Positions 1,536 through 10,889 of a stretch of DNA of 59,624 bases are shown here, one piece after another; positions within the stretch are counted from its first letter, which is position 1; each line of letters begins with the position of its first letter. Origin of the DNA: Planctomycetota bacterium. GTDB taxonomy: Bacteria; Planctomycetota; Phycisphaerae; SM23-33. The notes beneath the pieces were generated by a model that ran no database searches, was not told the origin of the DNA, and worked only from the letters and a program-made list of their open reading frames with translations. Made by a program: the position numbers and the translations under genes. The stretch is from the NCBI GenBank assembly GCA_026693065.1, contig JAPLNA010000230.1, positions 1 to 59,624 on the forward strand. Direction: 5' to 3'.

Positions 1536-3110
1536 ATGGCCTTCACGGAAACCAACACGACGACCCCCCGCCGCCGGCCGGTTATGCGCCGCGCCCGGGC
1601 CTGGGGGTTCGCCGCCGCCGGAGTCATGCTCCTGATCGCCGGGGCGCCCTCGCGAGGCCAACAGGCCGAGTCGCTCCCTGCCTCCGCGCCGGCCGCCGCC
1701 CCCGCTTCGGCGCCGGCGTCGGCGCCGGTTCCGTTGGAGATTCCCGCGCCCGAGTCGGTGAAGGCCTACGATTGCCCCAGCGACGACGGGTCGGCGATCA
1801 TCGTCGAGTGGGCCAAGCCCAAGATCGAAACTCCCGGCGCCGTATACGTCGTGGACGTGGCGGCGGCGAAAGAGGATTTCGCGGCCGGGGCCTTCAAGAC
1901 CGTCCAGGTCAAGCCCGGCCCCGAGGCCCTCAAGTCGGCCAACCAGAAGTTCTTCGGCGTTTCGCCGGCCAATGCGGGCCTCTACTATGCCCGCATCTGC
2001 CCGTCGAGCCTGTACCCGCCTGTCCCCGCCGGTGAGAGCCGGACCGAGAGCCTCACGCGGCACGCCAAGGCCGGGCATCTGAGTGCGGAGGAACTCCAAC
2101 GGGCCTTGGCAGCGTCGGACGCCGACGCGAAATGGCTCGCCCGCCTGATGGCCGACCTGACCGAGCGGGACACCACGGACGCCAAGGCCCGCACGAGGCG
2201 GATCAATGCGGCGACGTACTATCTGCGGCTGAGCGTGTCTCCGGACGGGGGCCGCGCCCGGGCGTACGTCTCGGATAAGGACGGCCAGCCGCTCGTGCTG
2301 TCGGCGGCGGCCCTGCCCAATCAGTTCAAGTGGTACAAACTCAACATCGCGATCTTCTCGGTGGCGTTTTGTGCGGTGGTGGCGGCGTTCATCTGGATCG
2401 CGCGGCGGAACCCCAACCTGTACATCCGCCGCATCGCCGGGCTGGACGCCGTCGATGAGGGCATCGGGCGGGCGACCGAGATGGGCCGACCGGTCTACTT
2501 CGTGCACGGCATCGCCGGCGTGGAAAGCATGGCCACCATGGCGTCCCTGACCATCCTGGGCCGAGTCGCCCGCAAGGCCGCCGAGTATGACACCCGCGTC
2601 CGCGTGATGAACTGGGACCCCATGGTGACGGCCGTCAGCCAGGAAGTCGTCCAGCAGGCCTACACCGAGGCCGGGCGACCCGACGCGTACAACCCCGACG
2701 ACGTCCTGTTCATTTCCACGGACAACTTCGCCTACGCGACGGCCGTCAGCGGGCTGGTGGTTCGCGAACGCCCGGCGGCGATCTTCATGCTGGGCACGTT
2801 CTTCGCCGAGAGCCTGTTCCTGGCCGAGACCGGCGCCTCCACCGGCGCGATCCAGATCTCCGGCACCGATTCCTACAGCCAGTTGCCCTTCCTGATCACC
2901 ACCTGCGACTACACGCTGATCGGGGAGGAGTTGTTCGCGGCCTCGGCGTATCTGTCGCGCGAGCCGAAGATGCTGGGCAGCCTCCGCGGGCAGGACGTCG
3001 GCAAGGCGTTCCTGATGGTCACCATCGTGGTCATCACGGCCGTACTGAGCGTGGCGGCGGCCCGGGGCGTTTCCCTGGACTGGCTCACCAACCTCTTCAA
3101 AACGTTCTAG
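1536..3110 (+). CDS. DUF6754-like membrane protein
   Basis: A 524-residue protein of unknown function. The N-terminus has a hydrophobic signal or anchor segment (about 24-42) followed by an Ala/Pro/Ser-rich linker, then a beta-rich region (about 65-150) resembling a fibronectin type III fold. A transmembrane helix lies at about 268-288 and a second near the C-terminus (about 490-512). Between them sits a roughly 190-residue soluble domain containing FVHGIAG and NPDDVLFIS segments. This two-helix bracketed domain matches my recollection of the uncharacterised DUF6754 family, which needs a profile search. It is followed after 15 bases by three further membrane-protein genes, suggesting one complex. 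Confidence 0.7.
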   Translation: MAFTETNTTTPRRRPVMRRARAWGFAAAGVMLLIAGAPSRGQQAESLPASAPAAAPASAPASAPVPLEIPAPESVKAYDCPSDDGSAIIVEWAKPKIETPGAVYVVDVAAAKEDFAAGAFKTVQVKPGPEALKSANQKFFGVSPANAGLYYARICPSSLYPPVPAGESRTESLTRHAKAGHLSAEELQRALAASDADAKWLARLMADLTERDTTDAKARTRRINAATYYLRLSVSPDGGRARAYVSDKDGQPLVLSAAALPNQFKWYKLNIAIFSVAFCAVVAAFIWIARRNPNLYIRRIAGLDAVDEGIGRATEMGRPVYFVHGIAGVESMATMASLTILGRVARKAAEYDTRVRVMNWDPMVTAVSQEVVQQAYTEAGRPDAYNPDDVLFISTDNFAYATAVSGLVVRERPAAIFMLGTFFAESLFLAETGASTGAIQISGTDSYSQLPFLITTCDYTLIGEELFAASAYLSREPKMLGSLRGQDVGKAFLMVTIVVITAVLSVAAARGVSLDWLTNLFKTF

Positions 3111-3125
3111 GACGACGGATTCGAC

Positions 3126-3800
3126 ATGTGGTACAAGCGAACGATACCCCTGATCCTGGTCTTCGCGATCGGCGTGGCCGCCTTCGTGCAGGAGTTCGTG
3201 CCCGCGCCGTGGGCGGGGCGATTCCGGGAGAACATCACCCTCTGGTTCCAGATCATCGGCAGTTTCGCCCTGTTCATCGGGCTCTACAGCCTCCTGCACA
3301 TGCACTGGACGCGGATCCGCCGCCAGACCCCCGGGTGGGCGTACAGCATCTTCGTATTCCTGGCCGCCGGCGGGATGATCGCCGTCGGGCTTTACAATGA
3401 GGGCAAGGGCCCGATCATCGACGTCGCCCAGGGCACGCGAACCTGGCTGGACCGGGGGTACGACTACCTCATCAAGCCCTGCACCGCGACGATCTACTCG
3501 AGCATGGCGTTCTTCATGGCCAGCGCGGCTTTCCGCACCTTCCGCGCCCGGAACACGGCGGCCGTGCTGATGCTCGTGGCGGCCCTGGTGGTCATGTTCG
3601 GCCGCGTGCCCGTCAGCGAGGTCCTCGGCGGCTGGCTGGGCGATCCGGAAATGTTCTCCCGGATCACCGACGTCCTGATGAAGTACCCCAACCTGGCCGC
3701 CAAGCGGGCGATCATGATGGGCATCAGCCTGGGGGCCATCGCCCAGTCGCTGCGAATCCTCCTGGGCGTCGAACGTTCGTACATGGGGGGAGGTGACTGA
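3126..3800 (+). CDS. Polytopic membrane protein of the DUF6754 cassette
   Basis: A 224-residue, strongly hydrophobic protein with about six predicted membrane segments (for example around residues 6-24, 35-58, 70-90, 123-140, 145-163, 190-212) and no recognisable catalytic motif. Its stop codon overlaps the start of the next gene (TGATG), implying translational coupling. The start follows the preceding stop by 15 bases. I do not recognise a named family; its role is likely structural or transport within the same membrane assembly as its neighbours. Confidence 0.65.
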   Translation: MWYKRTIPLILVFAIGVAAFVQEFVPAPWAGRFRENITLWFQIIGSFALFIGLYSLLHMHWTRIRRQTPGWAYSIFVFLAAGGMIAVGLYNEGKGPIIDVAQGTRTWLDRGYDYLIKPCTATIYSSMAFFMASAAFRTFRARNTAAVLMLVAALVVMFGRVPVSEVLGGWLGDPEMFSRITDVLMKYPNLAAKRAIMMGISLGAIAQSLRILLGVERSYMGGGD

Positions 3801-4633
3801 TGCCCGCCAACGATACCCAAGGCCTGATCCGCACCCGACGCATCATCTACCTGCTGGTGGCCGCGGCGATCATCGTGCCCTACGTGATCCAGATGCCCAT
3901 CCCCTCCTTCCACGCACAGGAAGAGGCTCACAAGGTCTATGACCGCGTCGAGAGCCTTCCCGCCGGGTCGCGCGTGCTGATCGCCATGGAATTCGACCCC
4001 AACTGCGAGGCGGAACTGCGCCCCATGGCCGAAGGCATCCTCAGGCACTGCTTCGCCAGGAAACTCGTGCCCATTCTGGTCACGACGAACTACATCGCCC
4101 CCGCCCTCATCAGCGACATCTGCCAGAAGATCGCCAAGGAAACCGGAACCGTCTCCGGCAAGGACTGGGTCTTCCTGGGATACCGCCCCGGCATGGCCAA
4201 CGTCGTGATCACCATGGGCGAGAGCATTCAGAGGACCTTCGAAACCGACAACTTCAGCCAGACCACCCGGGACATGCCCGCCCTGGCCGGGGTGAATTCG
4301 CTCAAGGACGTGTCCCTCATAACGGTCATCTCCCTGGGCGACACGGTGAACATGTGGATCCAGTACGGCTCGGACAGGCTCAAGGTTCCCCTGGTCGCCG
4401 GCGTAACGGCGGTGATGGCGCCGGACCTCTACCCGTACCTCAATACGGGGCAGGTCAAGGGCATCCTGGCCGGGCTGCGAGGCGCAGCCGATTACGAACT
4501 CCTCCTCCACCGCTCCGACGACGCCGCCAAGGGCATGCAAGTCCAGTCCGTCGCCCACGGGCTGCTCATCGCCCTGATCATCGGCGCCAACGTCCGTTTC
4601 CTCTTCCGCCGGGCCCAAGGAAAGGAGGCCTGA
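3800..4633 (+). CDS. Membrane-anchored protein of the DUF6754 cassette
   Basis: A 277-residue protein anchored at both ends: one helix at about residues 13-32 and one at about 252-270. The middle of about 210 residues is soluble and mixed alpha/beta (segments such as RVLIAMEFDP and KLVPILVTT look like alternating strands). Near the C-terminal helix is a GQVKGILAGLRGAADYE segment that looks conserved by composition. Its start overlaps the previous stop by one base and the next gene begins four bases after its stop. The double-anchored layout mirrors the DUF6754 protein two genes upstream. Function unknown. Confidence 0.65.
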   Translation: MPANDTQGLIRTRRIIYLLVAAAIIVPYVIQMPIPSFHAQEEAHKVYDRVESLPAGSRVLIAMEFDPNCEAELRPMAEGILRHCFARKLVPILVTTNYIAPALISDICQKIAKETGTVSGKDWVFLGYRPGMANVVITMGESIQRTFETDNFSQTTRDMPALAGVNSLKDVSLITVISLGDTVNMWIQYGSDRLKVPLVAGVTAVMAPDLYPYLNTGQVKGILAGLRGAADYELLLHRSDDAAKGMQVQSVAHGLLIALIIGANVRFLFRRAQGKEA

Positions 4634-4637
4634 CCTC

Positions 4638-5450
4638 ATGGAACCCCAGGCCCAAACCACCGAGAGCCCCATGCGACGCACCGTCGAAGCGGCCGTCATG
4701 ATCGCCCTGGGGACGGCCTTTGTCGTCGCCAGCATTCTCTGCCAGAAGGACAGCCTGTTCGGCAAGAACGCCAACGACCGGATCGAGGCCGTCGGTATCA
4801 TCATCGCCGCCGCCCTCACGCTGATCATGTACAGCTTCCTCTACCGCGACAACCCGCTTTTCAAGATCGCCGAGAATGTCTACATCGGCGCCCAACTGGG
4901 CTATGGCGCCATCAACACCTGGCGGCTGGCCCTGCGACCCCAGATCTACAACCCCCTGGCCCTGGCCCCGTCGAATCAGGCCCTCTGGGACGCCCTGGTC
5001 TTCCGCTCCGTCCCGATCCTGCTGGGCGTCCTGCTCCTGACCCGCCTGTCCCGCAAACACGGGTGGCTCAGCCGCTACTCCTACTCCATGATGGTCGGCT
5101 GGGGCGCGGGCATGACCATCCTGGTGATGACGGACACCAACATCCTCCAGCAACTCCAGGCCGCCGCCAAGCCCATCCAGGCCGGCGTCACCGCCGATGC
5201 CGGCTGGTGGGCCAACGCCGGCGCCGTCACCGGCGCCCTGACCGTCCTGGTCGGGACCGTCTGCGTCCTGTTCTACTTCTTCTTCTCCATCCCCCACGGC
5301 CCGGTCGGACAGAGGGTCTCCAAGACCGGCATCTGGTTCCTCATGCTCTCCTTCGGCGCGTCCTTCGGCTACACGGCCATGGCCCGCATCTCGCTCGTCA
5401 TCGGGCGAATGCGGTTCCTCCTGTTCGAGTGGCTGAAGATCCCGCAGTAA
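4638..5450 (+). CDS. Polytopic membrane protein of the DUF6754 cassette
   Basis: A 270-residue protein with about seven predicted membrane segments (about 15-32, 50-70, a central pair near 115-165, then 190-215 and 230-260). The ATG lies four bases after the preceding stop, and an AAGGAGG ribosome site sits inside the end of that gene. No known domain recognised. It is the last gene of the operon: the next gene is convergent and ends ten bases away, so transcription of the two strands must stop inside or close to the coding sequence. Confidence 0.65.
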   Translation: MEPQAQTTESPMRRTVEAAVMIALGTAFVVASILCQKDSLFGKNANDRIEAVGIIIAAALTLIMYSFLYRDNPLFKIAENVYIGAQLGYGAINTWRLALRPQIYNPLALAPSNQALWDALVFRSVPILLGVLLLTRLSRKHGWLSRYSYSMMVGWGAGMTILVMTDTNILQQLQAAAKPIQAGVTADAGWWANAGAVTGALTVLVGTVCVLFYFFFSIPHGPVGQRVSKTGIWFLMLSFGASFGYTAMARISLVIGRMRFLLFEWLKIPQ

Positions 5451-5459
5451 CTCCCCGCC

Positions 5460-6414
5460 TCAGGCCGGGCAGCTCCGCAGGTACTTCAGCAGGTCGTCCA
5501 GGTTGCACGTGGCCACGCCGACGTGCTGGTCCGCCCCGCCGTAGTAGACGAACAGCGTCCCGTCGATCACGACCGCCCCGCAGGGGAACACCACGCCGTT
5601 GTAGTACCCCTTCGTCTCGAAAGGCTCTTCCGGCTGGAGCAGCCAGTCGACCGATCGGTGGAGCACCTTCGAGGGGTCGTTCAGGTCCATCAGGATCGCC
5701 CCGACGCGGTAGTGCCAATCCGGGCCCACCCCGTGGTGCAGCATCAGCCACCCGTGCGGGGTCTTGATCGGCGGGGTGTTGGCCCCGACCTTGTTGACTT
5801 CCCACTCGTACCGCCCCGTCAGCAGCAGCTTGCTGTCGCGGCAGTCCAGCATGTCGTCCCCGCGGGCGATCCAGATCGACGGTTTCTCGCACGGATACCC
5901 AGGCCCGGCCCACTGCATCGGCCGCTGGATCATCACCCACTTGCCGTCGATGGGCTCGGGGAACAGGATCACATCGCGGTCGTCGACGAGGGGGCTGGTC
6001 ATACGCCCGGCCCGGAACCAGGTGCGGAAGTCTTTCGTCAGGGCCAGGCCGGTGGCGGTGCCCCGACAGCCAGTACTGGCCCGGCGGGAACGCGCGGCAG
6101 GCGTAGGTGACGAAGTACCACTCGCCGATCTTGATGATCCGCGGGTCCTCGATGCACCCGCCGTCGAACCCGTCGGCGCTCGGGCTGAAGACCGGCTTGT
6201 CGGAGGTTCGCGTGAAATGATACCCGTCCTTGCTGACGGCCAGGCCCAGGTGAACGCGGTGGGCGTCGTCCAGCCCGGCGGCGCGGTAGAGCATCAGCAC
6301 CTGTTGGGTCTTCTCGTCGTACCACGCGCCGGGGTTGGTCGCGACGGCGGCCTCCCAGGCATTGGCCCCGTTGGGGGACAGAATCGGATTGCCTTTGAAT
6401 CGCTGCAGTTTCAC
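5460..6414 (-). pseudogene. GH130 phosphorylase/hydrolase-like gene, frameshifted
   Basis: Read across one frameshift, this encodes about 318 residues of glycoside hydrolase family 130, whose members phosphorolyse or hydrolyse beta-mannosides. Frame one (from ATG at 6414) covers residues 1-118 and includes GCIEDPRIIKIG; the Asp of this motif (residue 90) sits where the family has its catalytic acid. Frame two resumes with TATGLALTKD and runs to 5460, including VVFPCGAVV and DGTLFVYYGG. The shift is at about 6057-6064, next to a four-base homopolymer; removing one base restores the frame. It is the last gene after the ABC permeases and has a close intact relative at 9876. Sequencing error and genuine inactivation cannot be separated here. 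Confidence 0.75.
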
Positions 6415-6445: not shown

Positions 6446-7350
6446 TTAGCCCTTCACCGCGCCGACCGTAATGCCTTTTACCAGGTGCTTCTGAAGCAGC
6501 ACGTACACCGCCAGCGTCGGGGCCATCATGAGCACGAGGCCCGCGAAGCCCATCCCGTAGTCGGTGCGGTACTGGCTGACAATCGTAATCTTGGCCAGGC
6601 CCAGCGGCAAGGTGCGGAGGGCGTCGCTGTCGGGGCCCGAGAGGAACATGAAGGCCATCAGGAACTCGTTCCACGTGCCCAGGAACGTGAAGATGCCCAC
6701 GGTGATCAGCCCCGACCGGGCCAGGGGGAGCATGACGCGCCAGAACGCGCCCCACTCGCCCGCCCCGTCCAGCAGGGCCGCCTCGTGCAGGCTCGCGGGC
6801 AGGGTCTTGAAGAACCCCGTCAGCACGAAGATGGAAAACGGCATGCCGAAGGCCACGTACACCACCAGCAGCCCCAGCCGCGAGTCCAGCAGGCCCAGCG
6901 ACTTCATCTCGAAGAACAGCGGCACGATCGCCAGTTGCAGGGGCACCATCAGCCCGGCCAGGAAGTAGAAGAACACCGGGCGAACGCCGCGGAAGCGGAA
7001 GCGGGAGATCGCGTAGGCCGCCATCGCCGACAGAAGGACGGTCATCGCGACGGTCCCGACCGTCAGGAGCATTGCAGATCGCCCCACGCCGGCAGCCAAA
7101 GCGGGTGCGCGTAGAAGTCCTGCGACGTCCTGAGCGACGTGCACAGCAGCCAGAACATCGGGTAGACCACCACGCCCACGCCGATGGCCAGGATGGGGTA
7201 GAGGGCGGCCCGGCACATGAAAACGAACGCCCTCGCCACGACCAGGGCATACGGGCGCGCTTTCCCGAACAGGAAGACCGCCACCCTCGCCAGCAGCAGA
7301 AGCCAGGATGCCTTGCGGAGCCCAGATCGGTTTTGGGCGCTGTCGTTCAT
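6446..7350 (-). pseudogene. Sugar ABC permease, MalG/YcjP type, internally deleted
   Basis: Second inner-membrane subunit of a carbohydrate ABC importer. The N-terminal 90 residues (from ATG at 7350) contain two hydrophobic stretches and the typical SLRTSQDFYAHPLWLP segment. The rest, in another frame (to 6446), starts at AMLLTVGTVAMTVLL and contains the EAA-type loop HEAALLDGAGEWGAF and the ending YVLLQKHLVKGIT. Compared with typical family members, about 20 residues between these parts (the Asn-Tyr...Phe-Asn-Ser stretch) are missing and the frame changes at about 7070. So there is a deletion of roughly 60 bases, not divisible by three. The start abuts the stop of the partner permease without a gap. 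Confidence 0.75.
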
Positions 7351-8202
7351 CTAGAGCTCCACCCGCTCGCGGCGCATCAGGCGCAGCGTGACGGCCGTGC
7401 CGAAGAACACCATCAGGAACAGCAGCACGGCGATGGCGCTGGCCTCGCCGACGTTGAACTCGTTGAACATGGAGTAGACCATCTTCGTGCCGATGACGTG
7501 GGTGGCCGTCGTGGGCTGTTGCTCCGTCAGCAGCCAGATGAGCTCGAAGGCCTTCATTCCGCCGATGACCAGGAAGACGGTCGCGATGGCGATGACCTCC
7601 TGGAGAAGCGGCAGGGTGATGTTGCGGAACTGTCGCCAGGGGGAGGCCCCGTCGATATCGGCGGCCTCGTACAGCTCGCGGGGGATGCCCTGCATCGCCG
7701 CCAGGAACAGCACCATGTAGAACCCGCACGCCCCCCACACGGAAATGGGCACCATCGCCCAGTACAGGTGGTCGGGCGACAGCCAGGCGAATTCCTGGAA
7801 CGACACCAGCCAAAGGCCCATTCTCGTGAGCCCCCAGTGCGTGGCGACGTCGCCGGCCCAGGTCAGGAAGCCGTTGATCATGCCGGCCTTCGGGTTGTAC
7901 AGGTGCATCCAGAGCAGCGTCGCGGTCACCCCGCCCAAGAGGTTGGGGAAGAAGAACACCACGCGGAAGAAGCCCGCCCCCCGCACCCCCCGGCTGATGC
8001 ACCCGGCCAGGAACAGCGAAAGGGGCAGGACGAACATCGGGATCACCAGCATGATGAACAGGTTGTTCGTGAGGGCCACCCAGAACCCGTCGCTCTCGAA
8101 GAGCAGCCGCTGGAAGTGGACCAGCCCGACGGGGATCATCTTCGTCAGCCCGTCCCACCGCTGGGTGCTCCAGCCGAAGGACTGGGCGCTGGGAGCGATC
8201 AC
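7351..8202 (-). CDS. Sugar ABC permease, MalF/UgpA type, 5' end missing
   Basis: First membrane subunit of the importer; 283 residues from a GTG at 8202. The binding-protein-dependent transport core is complete, including the EAA loop LYEAADIDGASPWRQF and five or so membrane helices. What is missing is the start: the sequence begins with VIAPSAQSFGWSTQ, which in normal family members directly follows the first transmembrane helix. Upstream of 8205 no in-frame helix exists; instead a lower-GC stretch of different character begins. The annotated GTG is therefore probably not the native start and the protein as drawn lacks helix 1. The gene abuts malG-like 7350. Confidence 0.75.
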   Translation of the reverse strand: MIAPSAQSFGWSTQRWDGLTKMIPVGLVHFQRLLFESDGFWVALTNNLFIMLVIPMFVLPLSLFLAGCISRGVRGAGFFRVVFFFPNLLGGVTATLLWMHLYNPKAGMINGFLTWAGDVATHWGLTRMGLWLVSFQEFAWLSPDHLYWAMVPISVWGACGFYMVLFLAAMQGIPRELYEAADIDGASPWRQFRNITLPLLQEVIAIATVFLVIGGMKAFELIWLLTEQQPTTATHVIGTKMVYSMFNEFNVGEASAIAVLLFLMVFFGTAVTLRLMRRERVEL

Positions 8203-8205
8203 GAA

Positions 8206-8470
8206 CGGCCGCCTGGGATGGTACGGTGCTACGCCGGTTACCTTAGGACAACGACCGTTTCTGGCTTTGGTAGTTGATCTCGAGGGCGCCGGAAAATCCG
8301 GGCAATTGGCCGACGTTCAGTGCGTATTCGGCCGCTCCCAGATGCGCGTGGAATCGTTGTTGGGCTATCTCGATTTTGCCTATCCCAGCCGTTGGGTTAT
8401 CCCTTTCAACCGGACCGAGTTAGATCCTTGGTGGGGAGCATGGCAACCGTTCGTGTTTGCCATGGCTTCG
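8206..8470 (+). other. Foreign-looking fragment between ABC genes
   Basis: This 250-base stretch is visibly less GC-rich than both flanks and does not continue either neighbour. On the plus strand one frame translates without stops into protein-like sequence with segments such as RPFLALVVDLEGAG, YLDFAYPSRWVIPF and WWGAWQPFVFAM, rich in Trp and aromatic residues. It has no start or end of its own. It replaces the 5' end of the permease gene and touches the 3' end of the binding-protein gene, so it is either an inserted remnant of an unrelated gene (possibly a membrane protein N-terminus) or a chimeric join in the assembly. Confidence 0.4.
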
Positions 8471-9736
8471 CACGGACGCCGCCGCCCGCTCCATCATTTC
8501 GGCGGCGTCGTCGGGAGTGATCCGCTCCTCGTTGATGATCAGTTTGGTGATCATGTCCGCCCAGTGCTGGTCCATCTCGGGTCGGAGGGGCAAGTACGAA
8601 TAAATGCTCTTGGCCTGCTTGCCCATCGCCACCAGGCCGTCCAGGTCGCTCGAGAGGTTGCCCTCGGAGGCCCCGCGAATCGCCGCGGGCTGGTCTCGCT
8701 GGCGGCAGAACTCGGCGGCCATCTTCCGCGACGTCATGAACCGCAGAAAGTCCGCCGCTTCCCTCGGGTGGCGGCTGTGCTTCATCACCCAGAAGTACCC
8801 GTTCCAGGCATTGACCGCCGTCGGATCGCCCTTGCCCCCCGGCACGACCGGCAGGTTGAACGTCCCCAGGCGGAACCCGGGCGGGATATTGCCCTTCATC
8901 TCGCTCTTGAGCCACGACGCGCAGACGATCATCGCCGCCTGGCCCTGGAAGAACTGCATCTGGGCCTCGGTGTGGCTCATCCCCGACGAGCCCTTCTGGA
9001 AGTAGTTCACCGCCAGCCGCTGCGTCAGGGCCGCCGCCTCGCGGAACTCCGGGTTGTCGAAGCTCCCCTGGCGAACGTCGAGCATCGCCATGAACCGCTC
9101 CGCCCCCGCCAGGTGGTAATACGCCGACTGCAGCAGGCTGTTGGCGTAGGTGGGGTATCGCCCCATGAAGGCGATCGGGGCGATGCCGGCGGCCTTGACC
9201 TGCTCGCACAGGGCGTACAACTCATCCCACGTCCGCGCGGGCTTCCACCCGTGCTTCTCGAACATCGCCTTGTTGTACCAGATCCCCCACACCCAGTACG
9301 TCAGCGGCACGCCGTATACCTTGCCCCCGTCGGTGTACTGGTCCAGCGCCCCGGCCATGAACGAACTCCGCCACGTGCGGTCCTCGTCCCAGGCCGGTGC
9401 GTCCAGGAATTCGTCCATCGGCTGGACGAAACCCCCGCGAATGAGGTTCCAACTGGCCGACCCGTCCGGGATGTTCGTGATCTCCGGGTACGTGCCCTCC
9501 AAGATGCGGATCCGGACCTTGTCGGGCATCCGCGGATCGCCCGAGAGGTTCACCTTCACGTTGGGCCTGAGCTTCTCGTACTCCCGGGCGCACTGGAGAT
9601 AAAACTCCATCCCCTCGCCGCCGGCAAAGAGGAGCACCTCGATCTCCACGGGTTTGTCCGCCTCGCCGCACCACGCCGCCGCCGGCGCCGACAGCAAGGC
9701 CGCCAACCCTGTCAGTACGCACATCAGTCTGGACAT
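8420..9736 (-). CDS. Sugar ABC transporter substrate-binding protein
   Basis: An exported extracellular solute-binding protein of family 1, about 438 residues from ATG at 9736. A short signal peptide (MSRLMCVLTG to about residue 22) is followed by the usual first strand EIEVLLFAGGEG. The clamshell fold is recognisable by segments such as YGVPLTYWVWGIWYNKAMFEKHG (about 125-147) and AVNAWNGYFWVMKHS. Trp-rich sites suggest a carbohydrate ligand. The last about 15 residues run into the foreign-looking fragment, so the native C-terminus may be altered. It leads the importer genes and is divergent from the intact GH130 gene, 139 bases away, fitting oligomannoside or mannosyl-glycoside uptake. No ATPase gene is nearby; a shared ATPase elsewhere is common. 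Confidence 0.85.
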   Translation of the reverse strand: MSRLMCVLTGLAALLSAPAAAWCGEADKPVEIEVLLFAGGEGMEFYLQCAREYEKLRPNVKVNLSGDPRMPDKVRIRILEGTYPEITNIPDGSASWNLIRGGFVQPMDEFLDAPAWDEDRTWRSSFMAGALDQYTDGGKVYGVPLTYWVWGIWYNKAMFEKHGWKPARTWDELYALCEQVKAAGIAPIAFMGRYPTYANSLLQSAYYHLAGAERFMAMLDVRQGSFDNPEFREAAALTQRLAVNYFQKGSSGMSHTEAQMQFFQGQAAMIVCASWLKSEMKGNIPPGFRLGTFNLPVVPGGKGDPTAVNAWNGYFWVMKHSRHPREAADFLRFMTSRKMAAEFCRQRDQPAAIRGASEGNLSSDLDGLVAMGKQAKSIYSYLPLRPEMDQHWADMITKLIINEERITPDDAAEMMERAAASVRSHGKHERLPCSPPRI

Positions 9737-9875
9737 AATCGGCACTGTTGTCCCGTTCCGGGGGTGTGTTGTCAACGGGCAAATGCCCGGCCCGGGGGCT
9801 TTTCTTCTTGAGCCTCGCGGGCCCCCCGTGAATAATGTCCGGCCACGAGCCAACCCGCTCAGGAGACACCACCCG

Positions 9876-10889
9876 ATGCGACTGAAGAAATGGAACGGCA
9901 ACCCGATCCTCCTGCCCAAACCCGACAGCTACTGGGAACGCCAGGGCGTGCTCAACCCCGCCGCCATCTACGATAACGGCAAGGTCTCGCTGCTCTACCG
10001 CGCCTCCGGCGAGAGCGAAGACCTCCGCATCTACATCGGCCTGGCCGAAAGCCGCGACGGGTTCCACTTCGAACGCGTCGGCACGGAGCCCGTCCTGCCG
10101 CCCTCCGAAGACGGCTTCGACGCCGGCTGCGTCGAGGACCCCCGCGTGGTGAAGATGGGCGACACGTACTACATGGCCTACGCCGCCCGCGCCCATCCGC
10201 CGTGCGCCCACTGGGCCGGGCGGAAACGCAAAAACCTCCCCGCCCAGACCGGCACGTGGGTGGAGAACTGGACGCGATCCGGCATCGCCACCAGCAAGGA
10301 CCTGCGTAACTGGACCCGCCTGGGCCCCTGCACCAGCGACGAGATCGACAACCGCGACGTGATCCTCTTCCCCGAGAAGATCGGCGGGCGCTACGTCATG
10401 CTCCACCGCCCCATCGACCGCCGCAATCCCGTCAAGTACCCCCAGTACGAATCCACAGCCATCTGGCTGTCGACGTCCGAGGACCTGAAGACCTGGACGG
10501 GGGAGACCGCCATCGCCCGCCCCGAGCTGCCCTGGGAAGGCGGCTGGATGGGCGGCGGCTGCCCCCCCATCCGCACGCCCGAAGGCTGGCTGACGATCTA
10601 CCACGCCGTGGCCAACCTCGACGGCAAGGGCAACGCCTACCGCGCCGGGGCCATGCTGCTGGACCTGGAAGACCCCCGCAAGATCCTGGCCCGCCCGGAC
10701 GACTTCTTCCTCGAGCCGGCCGCCCCCTTCGAGCTCGAAGGCGCCACCGGCCGGGTAACCTTCCCCTGCGGCGCGGTCGTCATCGGCAAAGAGCTCTTCG
10801 TCTACTACGGCGCCGCCGACTCCGTCTGCTGCGTCGCCACCGCCAACCTGGCCGAACTGATGGCCTGGCTCCTCTCCTTCCGCAAGTAA
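9876..10889 (+). CDS. GH130 beta-mannoside phosphorylase-like enzyme
   Basis: An intact 337-residue GH130 protein, a five-bladed beta-propeller family acting on beta-mannosides by phosphorolysis or hydrolysis. The motif GCVEDPRVVKMG places Asp88 at the position of the catalytic acid. The family's downstream NRDVILFPEKIGGRYVMLHR and the C-terminal VTFPCGAVV and ELFVYYGAAD blocks are present. No signal peptide, so cytoplasmic. The ATG at 9876 has AGGAGA nine bases upstream; a longer in-frame start is not needed. Divergent from the ABC importer and paralogous to the broken GH130 at its far end, so the two probably processed imported oligosaccharides together. Phosphorolysis versus hydrolysis cannot be told from the motifs I can judge. 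Confidence 0.85.
   Translation: MRLKKWNGNPILLPKPDSYWERQGVLNPAAIYDNGKVSLLYRASGESEDLRIYIGLAESRDGFHFERVGTEPVLPPSEDGFDAGCVEDPRVVKMGDTYYMAYAARAHPPCAHWAGRKRKNLPAQTGTWVENWTRSGIATSKDLRNWTRLGPCTSDEIDNRDVILFPEKIGGRYVMLHRPIDRRNPVKYPQYESTAIWLSTSEDLKTWTGETAIARPELPWEGGWMGGGCPPIRTPEGWLTIYHAVANLDGKGNAYRAGAMLLDLEDPRKILARPDDFFLEPAAPFELEGATGRVTFPCGAVVIGKELFVYYGAADSVCCVATANLAELMAWLLSFRK

Follow-up and report, generated by a model that had tools for sequence, protein, structure and literature searches.

This study was concerned with four adjacent genes, designated A, B, C and D, near the start of a 59,624-nucleotide stretch of DNA from a Planctomycetota bacterium (GenBank assembly GCA_026693065.1, contig JAPLNA010000230.1, positions 1 to 59,624), and this whole stretch is referred to as the window. 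The cassette is a copy of what forms the membrane core of a conserved machine, and this machine occurs in numerous bacterial phyla that have been little studied. The genes and their principal features are as follows.

1536-3110, + strand: gene A, open reading frame of 524 residues with a PF20539 domain
2319-3053, + strand: DUF6754 domain of A, alpha/beta, predicted cytosolic
about 2346-2405 and 3006-3065, + strand: transmembrane helices flanking DUF6754 of A
3126-3800, + strand: gene B, open reading frame of 224 residues, six-helix membrane protein with both ends cytosolic
3800-4633, + strand: gene C, open reading frame of 277 residues, helix, extracytoplasmic alpha/beta domain, helix
4556-4591, + strand: polar residues H253 and N264 in the C-terminal membrane helix of C, from alignment and model
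4638-5450, + strand: gene D, open reading frame of 270 residues, polytopic membrane protein

A preliminary description of this DNA had reported four genes on one strand with gaps of 15, -1 and 4 bases, and the open reading frame listing agrees. The member it called DUF6754-like, A, matches PF20539 with an E value of 1.5e-109 and 365.6 bits against a Pfam cut-off of 27. As in that description, two members are polytopic, namely B and D, and one, C, has a helix at each end. The layout of helix, soluble domain and helix that it ascribed to two members was recovered in C and in the DUF6754 domain of A, which lies between helices. Two features were absent from that description. First, A starts with a signal peptide and carries a domain of FnIII type on the extracytoplasmic side. 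Secondly, A to D are part of a larger system.

A consists of a signal peptide, an Ala/Pro-rich linker, an FnIII-like and helical region, a helix, DUF6754 and a second helix. The domain search found an fn3 match in 3 of 32 relatives of A (best 1e-6), and FnIII structures were among the matches of the A model in the fold search. The model of A was moderate (72.4) and its DUF6754 domain is Rossmann-like; an alignment of 18 sequences contains about 50 invariant DUF6754 columns. In B, residues R137, F139 and R140 were invariant in 100 of 100 homologues, and the K+R values in the family alignment alternate (1.8, 0.3, 4.0, 1.1, 3.1, 0.7, 2.2), which indicates six helices. The AlphaFold2 model of C (predicted local distance difference test 93.9, predicted template modelling score 0.87) shows a helix, an alpha/beta domain and a C-terminal helix spanning residues 241-272, in which H253 is kept in 114 of 117 sequences and N264 in 116 of 117. 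D has a conserved motif, FGxxFGYTxMxRxSLxIGR, and two near-invariant residues, E79 and R250. Charge bias in the family alignments places the fn3 region of A and the soluble domain of C outside and DUF6754 inside. Prediction supports an arrangement in which FnIII of A and the alpha/beta part of C would be extracytoplasmic, DUF6754 would lie inside, and B and D would form a membrane bundle.

The preliminary description could name no role for any member. It would also have been contradicted by a member that belonged to a known transporter family, and A to D fall in none in Pfam, NCBIfam and PDB sequence searches. B, C and D had no credible Pfam or NCBIfam family match, and a PDB sequence search with these proteins, A and the partner protein L (described below) found nothing credible. 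Profile comparison of the DUF6754 domain of A with C gave no homology (2.5%), though the order of secondary-structure elements appears similar; comparisons of B with D and of L with A gave none either.

The larger system includes two soluble proteins, M (~600 residues) and L (~375 residues). Most of 40 stretches collected from Planctomycetota and relatives have the order A-B-C-D, and M and L are often encoded directly upstream of it. M matches PF13941 (MutL/GlmL) with an E value of 2.8e-132 and 442.1 bits (cut-off 27), and the match to the ASKHA core extends over all 450 positions of the Pfam model; M has two Gly-rich motifs and about 120 extra C-terminal residues. The domain matches of L are RnfC_N, Biotin_lipoyl and NQRA_N, which are barrel-sandwich hybrids, followed by a KOW/SH3-like C-terminus. 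RnfC_N was found in 22 of 26 members (best 1.6e-6; under the cut-off in the member shown) and NqrA_N in 10 of 26. Two small proteins accompany these, S (~115 residues, motif FLESxxPLxFxGSQ) in 49 loci and T (~135 residues) in 18 loci.

Co-inheritance was assessed by profile searches for A to D, L and M in 149 Planctomycetota genomes, with M counted over the Pfam cut-off. The sets of positive genomes almost coincided (A 41, B 41, C 42, D 41, L 38 and M 42), and their overlap had hypergeometric P values of 1e-24 to 1e-36, uncorrected for relatedness. Most exceptions were incomplete genomes. Among cassette genomes at least 90% complete, 23 of 26 have all six genes, and one of the others, G099, is without L. 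The subunits are also co-inherited without linkage: in the single-contig genome G024 the genes lie at five places (A and L at ~0.29 Mb, M at 0.79, D at 2.30, B at 3.48 and C at 3.53 Mb), and in G137 all six are likewise present at separate places. That all six are kept although they are not neighbours is the strongest indication that they function together.

Beyond the Planctomycetota, a contig scan with A alone gave no match, and the DUF6754 alignment used as query gave at least 573 confirmed loci, of which 80 were kept. By record titles these 80 belong to Planctomycetota (including anammox genera), Latescibacterota, Gemmatimonadota, Nitrospirota, Methylomirabilis, WOR-3/Stahlbacteria, Eisenbacteria, Poribacteria, Fermentibacteria/Aegiribacteria, Cloacimonadota, TA06, Zixiibacteriota, Edwardsbacteria, Elusimicrobia, Armatimonadetes and others, although individual names may be wrong because the majority are metagenome bins. 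The usual gene order, in at least 15 phyla, is (T)-S-M-L-A-B-C-D, and A-D is often tandemly duplicated behind a single M-L. Identity between phyla is about 50% for L and about 35% for C. The preliminary description had stated that failure of the four genes to occur together elsewhere would speak against it; in the gene-neighbourhood comparison A-D do occur together across phyla. Its proposal of a multi-subunit membrane complex is supported by this and by the co-occurrence in the 149 genomes, but the unit is larger than the four genes it considered. Open-access literature yielded nothing on DUF6754, PF20539 or PF13941, and subscription literature was not searched.

The source genome (93% complete) contains two A-D sets, and the searches found a single M and a single L in it. 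The second set, on contig C163 (locus L036), is a full operon, and the C proteins of the two sets are sisters (support 0.99). Thus, the window cassette is a lineage-level duplicate of the A-D block, without M, L, S or T. The window begins at contig base 1, so genes further upstream are out of view. The secreted metalloprotease that the preliminary description placed upstream on the same strand is there, as a putative secreted metallopeptidase (PF12044; 111-1499, + strand) ending 36 bases before A. It was considered as a component and rejected: no homologue lies near the other collected Planctomycetota cassettes, and it is therefore most likely a bystander.

A, B, C and D very probably form an obligate inner-membrane complex. 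We propose that they would be subunits of one complex working with the cytosolic proteins M and L and the small proteins S and T. Nucleotide turnover by M may be relayed via L to DUF6754 and to the cytosolic loops of B and D, and this relay may drive a change across the membrane by which an extracytoplasmic client would be handled, either by transporting it or by assembling part of the envelope. Different clients sharing one ATPase could then account for the variation in the N-terminal domain of A and for how often A-D is duplicated. For the obligate complex together with this ATP-driven transport or assembly mechanism through M and L, we estimate a probability of roughly 0.45. A more specific formulation, considered jointly, is an ATP-driven machine powered by a GlmL-family ASKHA ATPase, not by an ABC, AAA+ or SecA-type motor, with a barrel-sandwich-hybrid adaptor and a four-protein core, conserved in 15 or more phyla, with anammox and nitrite-oxidising lineages among its carriers; it is possible, though on balance doubtful.

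Several points weigh against the ATP-driven reading. First, ATPase activity of M is presumed from its family. Secondly, the topology of D is ambiguous by charge bias. Third, fold searches of C (PDB and viral models) and of A (PDB) gave weak, generic Rossmann and FnIII matches and no convincing relative. Fourth, two genomes at least 90% complete, G037 and G050, have A-D without an M or L match, which could reflect missing contigs or M-independent complexes. Lastly, some lineages have an FHA domain within B or HEAT repeats within C, and such insertions would also fit a sensing role.

Such a role belongs to the first alternative, an envelope sensor in which A and C perceive an extracytoplasmic signal and relay it to M and L, without transport. 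The FnIII domain of A lies outside, the FHA and HEAT inserts occur in one lineage each, and the A protein of the C163 copy has a SHOCT-like match, all of which are consistent with sensing. However, the operon has no conserved partner of the kinase, cyclase, sigma-factor or DNA-binding kind, and two polytopic subunits with invariant polar residues exceed the needs of a sensor. A sensor is unlikely.

An ion-pumping or redox complex in the style of Rnf or Nqr, with L in the role of RnfC/NqrA, would account for the fact that L matches the RnfC_N and NqrA_N barrel-sandwich hybrids best, and for several polytopic subunits with conserved polar residues. No other subunit or cofactor-binding domain of such a complex was matched when A-D and L were compared with Pfam, NCBIfam and PDB sequences. 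In addition, A has a single invariant Cys and C has none, and therefore neither has Fe-S ligands; L ends in KOW/SH3, and an ASKHA ATPase is foreign to Rnf and Nqr. We consider this explanation improbable.

The cassette could also act as an accessory to an ABC importer of peptides, of the Opp/Dpp type. Genes of this type flank or interrupt it in four phyla altogether: Gemmatimonadota (L089), Elusimicrobiota (L142), Planctomycetota (L046, L068, L074) and Latescibacterota (L077, L086, L091, L096). For example, the order is SBP-OppB-OppC-L-A-B-C-D-OppD-OppF in the Gemmatimonadota bin and L-[SBP-OppBCDF]-A-B-C-D in the Elusimicrobia bin, and at least 4 Planctomycetota genomes have SBP_bac_5 no more than 5 kb from A-D, against 0.30 expected (P 3e-4). 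However, SBP_bac_5 is absent from six cassette genomes, five of them 99-100% complete and one 96% complete (G049, G070, G088, G106, G122 and G138). The link to an importer is therefore optional. Most loci are without such a neighbour, and anammox genomes carry the cassette without an Opp-type importer. An obligatory role is weakened by these observations, and the accessory explanation has a small chance of being right.

A further alternative is that M, as a member of the GlmL/MutL family (PF13941), helps a B12-dependent mutase, with the membrane proteins serving B12 delivery or reactivation. Proteins like M are currently labelled 'glutamate mutase L'. However, M scores under all three NCBIfam cut-offs for this family: 240.1 against 475 bits for GlmL, 214 against 600 for Or-4 and 175.9 against 204.05 for glmL_fam. 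Glutamate mutase E (PF06368) was over its cut-off in 3 of the 149 genomes (G010, G040 and G098), all PF13941-positive and cassette-negative, and in none of the 42 genomes with the cassette; this search did not extend to ornithine aminomutase or other B12 enzymes. For these two reasons, M is a separate GlmL-type branch travelling with the membrane core, not a glutamate mutase helper, and the B12 explanation is very improbable. Finally, tight packing alone could be chance, but the retention of the genes even when scattered over the chromosome, and a search that found no viral or plasmid copies, leave next to no room for mere neighbours or for mobile-element or prophage cargo.

Several other neighbouring genes were recorded. 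Beside D in the window lies a GH130 glycoside-phosphorylase gene (5460-6414, - strand) split over two frames, with profile positions 32-118 in one and 158-319 in the other; either the gene is frameshifted or the assembly is wrong here. The following sugar-ABC permease gene (BPD_transp_1; 6446-7350, - strand) also seemingly occupies two frames (6446-7087 and 7063-7350), and its split points to sequence errors in this region. Next come a second permease (7351-8202) and a binding protein of the SBP_bac_1 type (8420-9919). Downstream of the second cassette (L036, G000:C163; 19106-20000, + strand) is a large beta-helix protein that starts with MMEGLEPRILFDWV, which we take to be a LEPR-like N-terminus, as in planctomycete surface proteins.

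In other lineages, eight Nitrospira-type bins (L122, L137, L138, L140, L149, L150, L152 and L153) have a conserved protein of ~415 residues after D on the same strand, a MEMO-like candidate by eye. Seven Fermentibacteria-like bins (L114, L121, L123, L126, L127, L129 and L155), also judged by eye, have the operon behind gcvT, gcvH and gcvP and before a TonB-receptor-like protein; some bins also have ExbB/ExbD-like genes after it. A link to lipoate or glycine cleavage (gcv genes, lplA and lipA near the cassette) was seen in few lineages only and was dropped. Members of family f30 (L156, L157 and L165) have an insertion of ~380 residues in B, placed between helices 3 and 4, and some of them have the six genes dispersed over the chromosome.

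A strictly conserved gene set without a named function is a real gap, and its carriers, which include anammox planctomycetes, Nitrospira, Gemmatimonadota and Latescibacterota, are ecologically central. GlmL/MutL-family proteins in cassette genomes should not count as evidence for glutamate mutase. In addition, the cassette and its partners constitute a defined gene set that is open to deletion and purification.

No named system tested has the make-up of the cassette, and its novelty rests on architecture, not on proven activity. A is a full member of DUF6754 (PF20539), which Pfam itself lists as a domain of unknown function. Opp/Dpp ABC importers of the SBP_bac_5 type are genomic neighbours in four phyla, but A-D are not homologous to an ABC permease, ATPase or binding protein. 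RnfC and NqrA of Rnf and Na+-NQR have a barrel-sandwich hybrid that the predicted one in L resembles, whereas L differs in its KOW/SH3-like C-terminus, its ASKHA partner and the lack of any other recognised Rnf/Nqr subunit. GlmL/MutL (PF13941, TIGR01319), the glutamate mutase accessory protein, has an ASKHA core in common with M, whereas M is set apart by its extra C-terminus, its scores under the cut-offs and its company, A-D and L without glutamate mutase.

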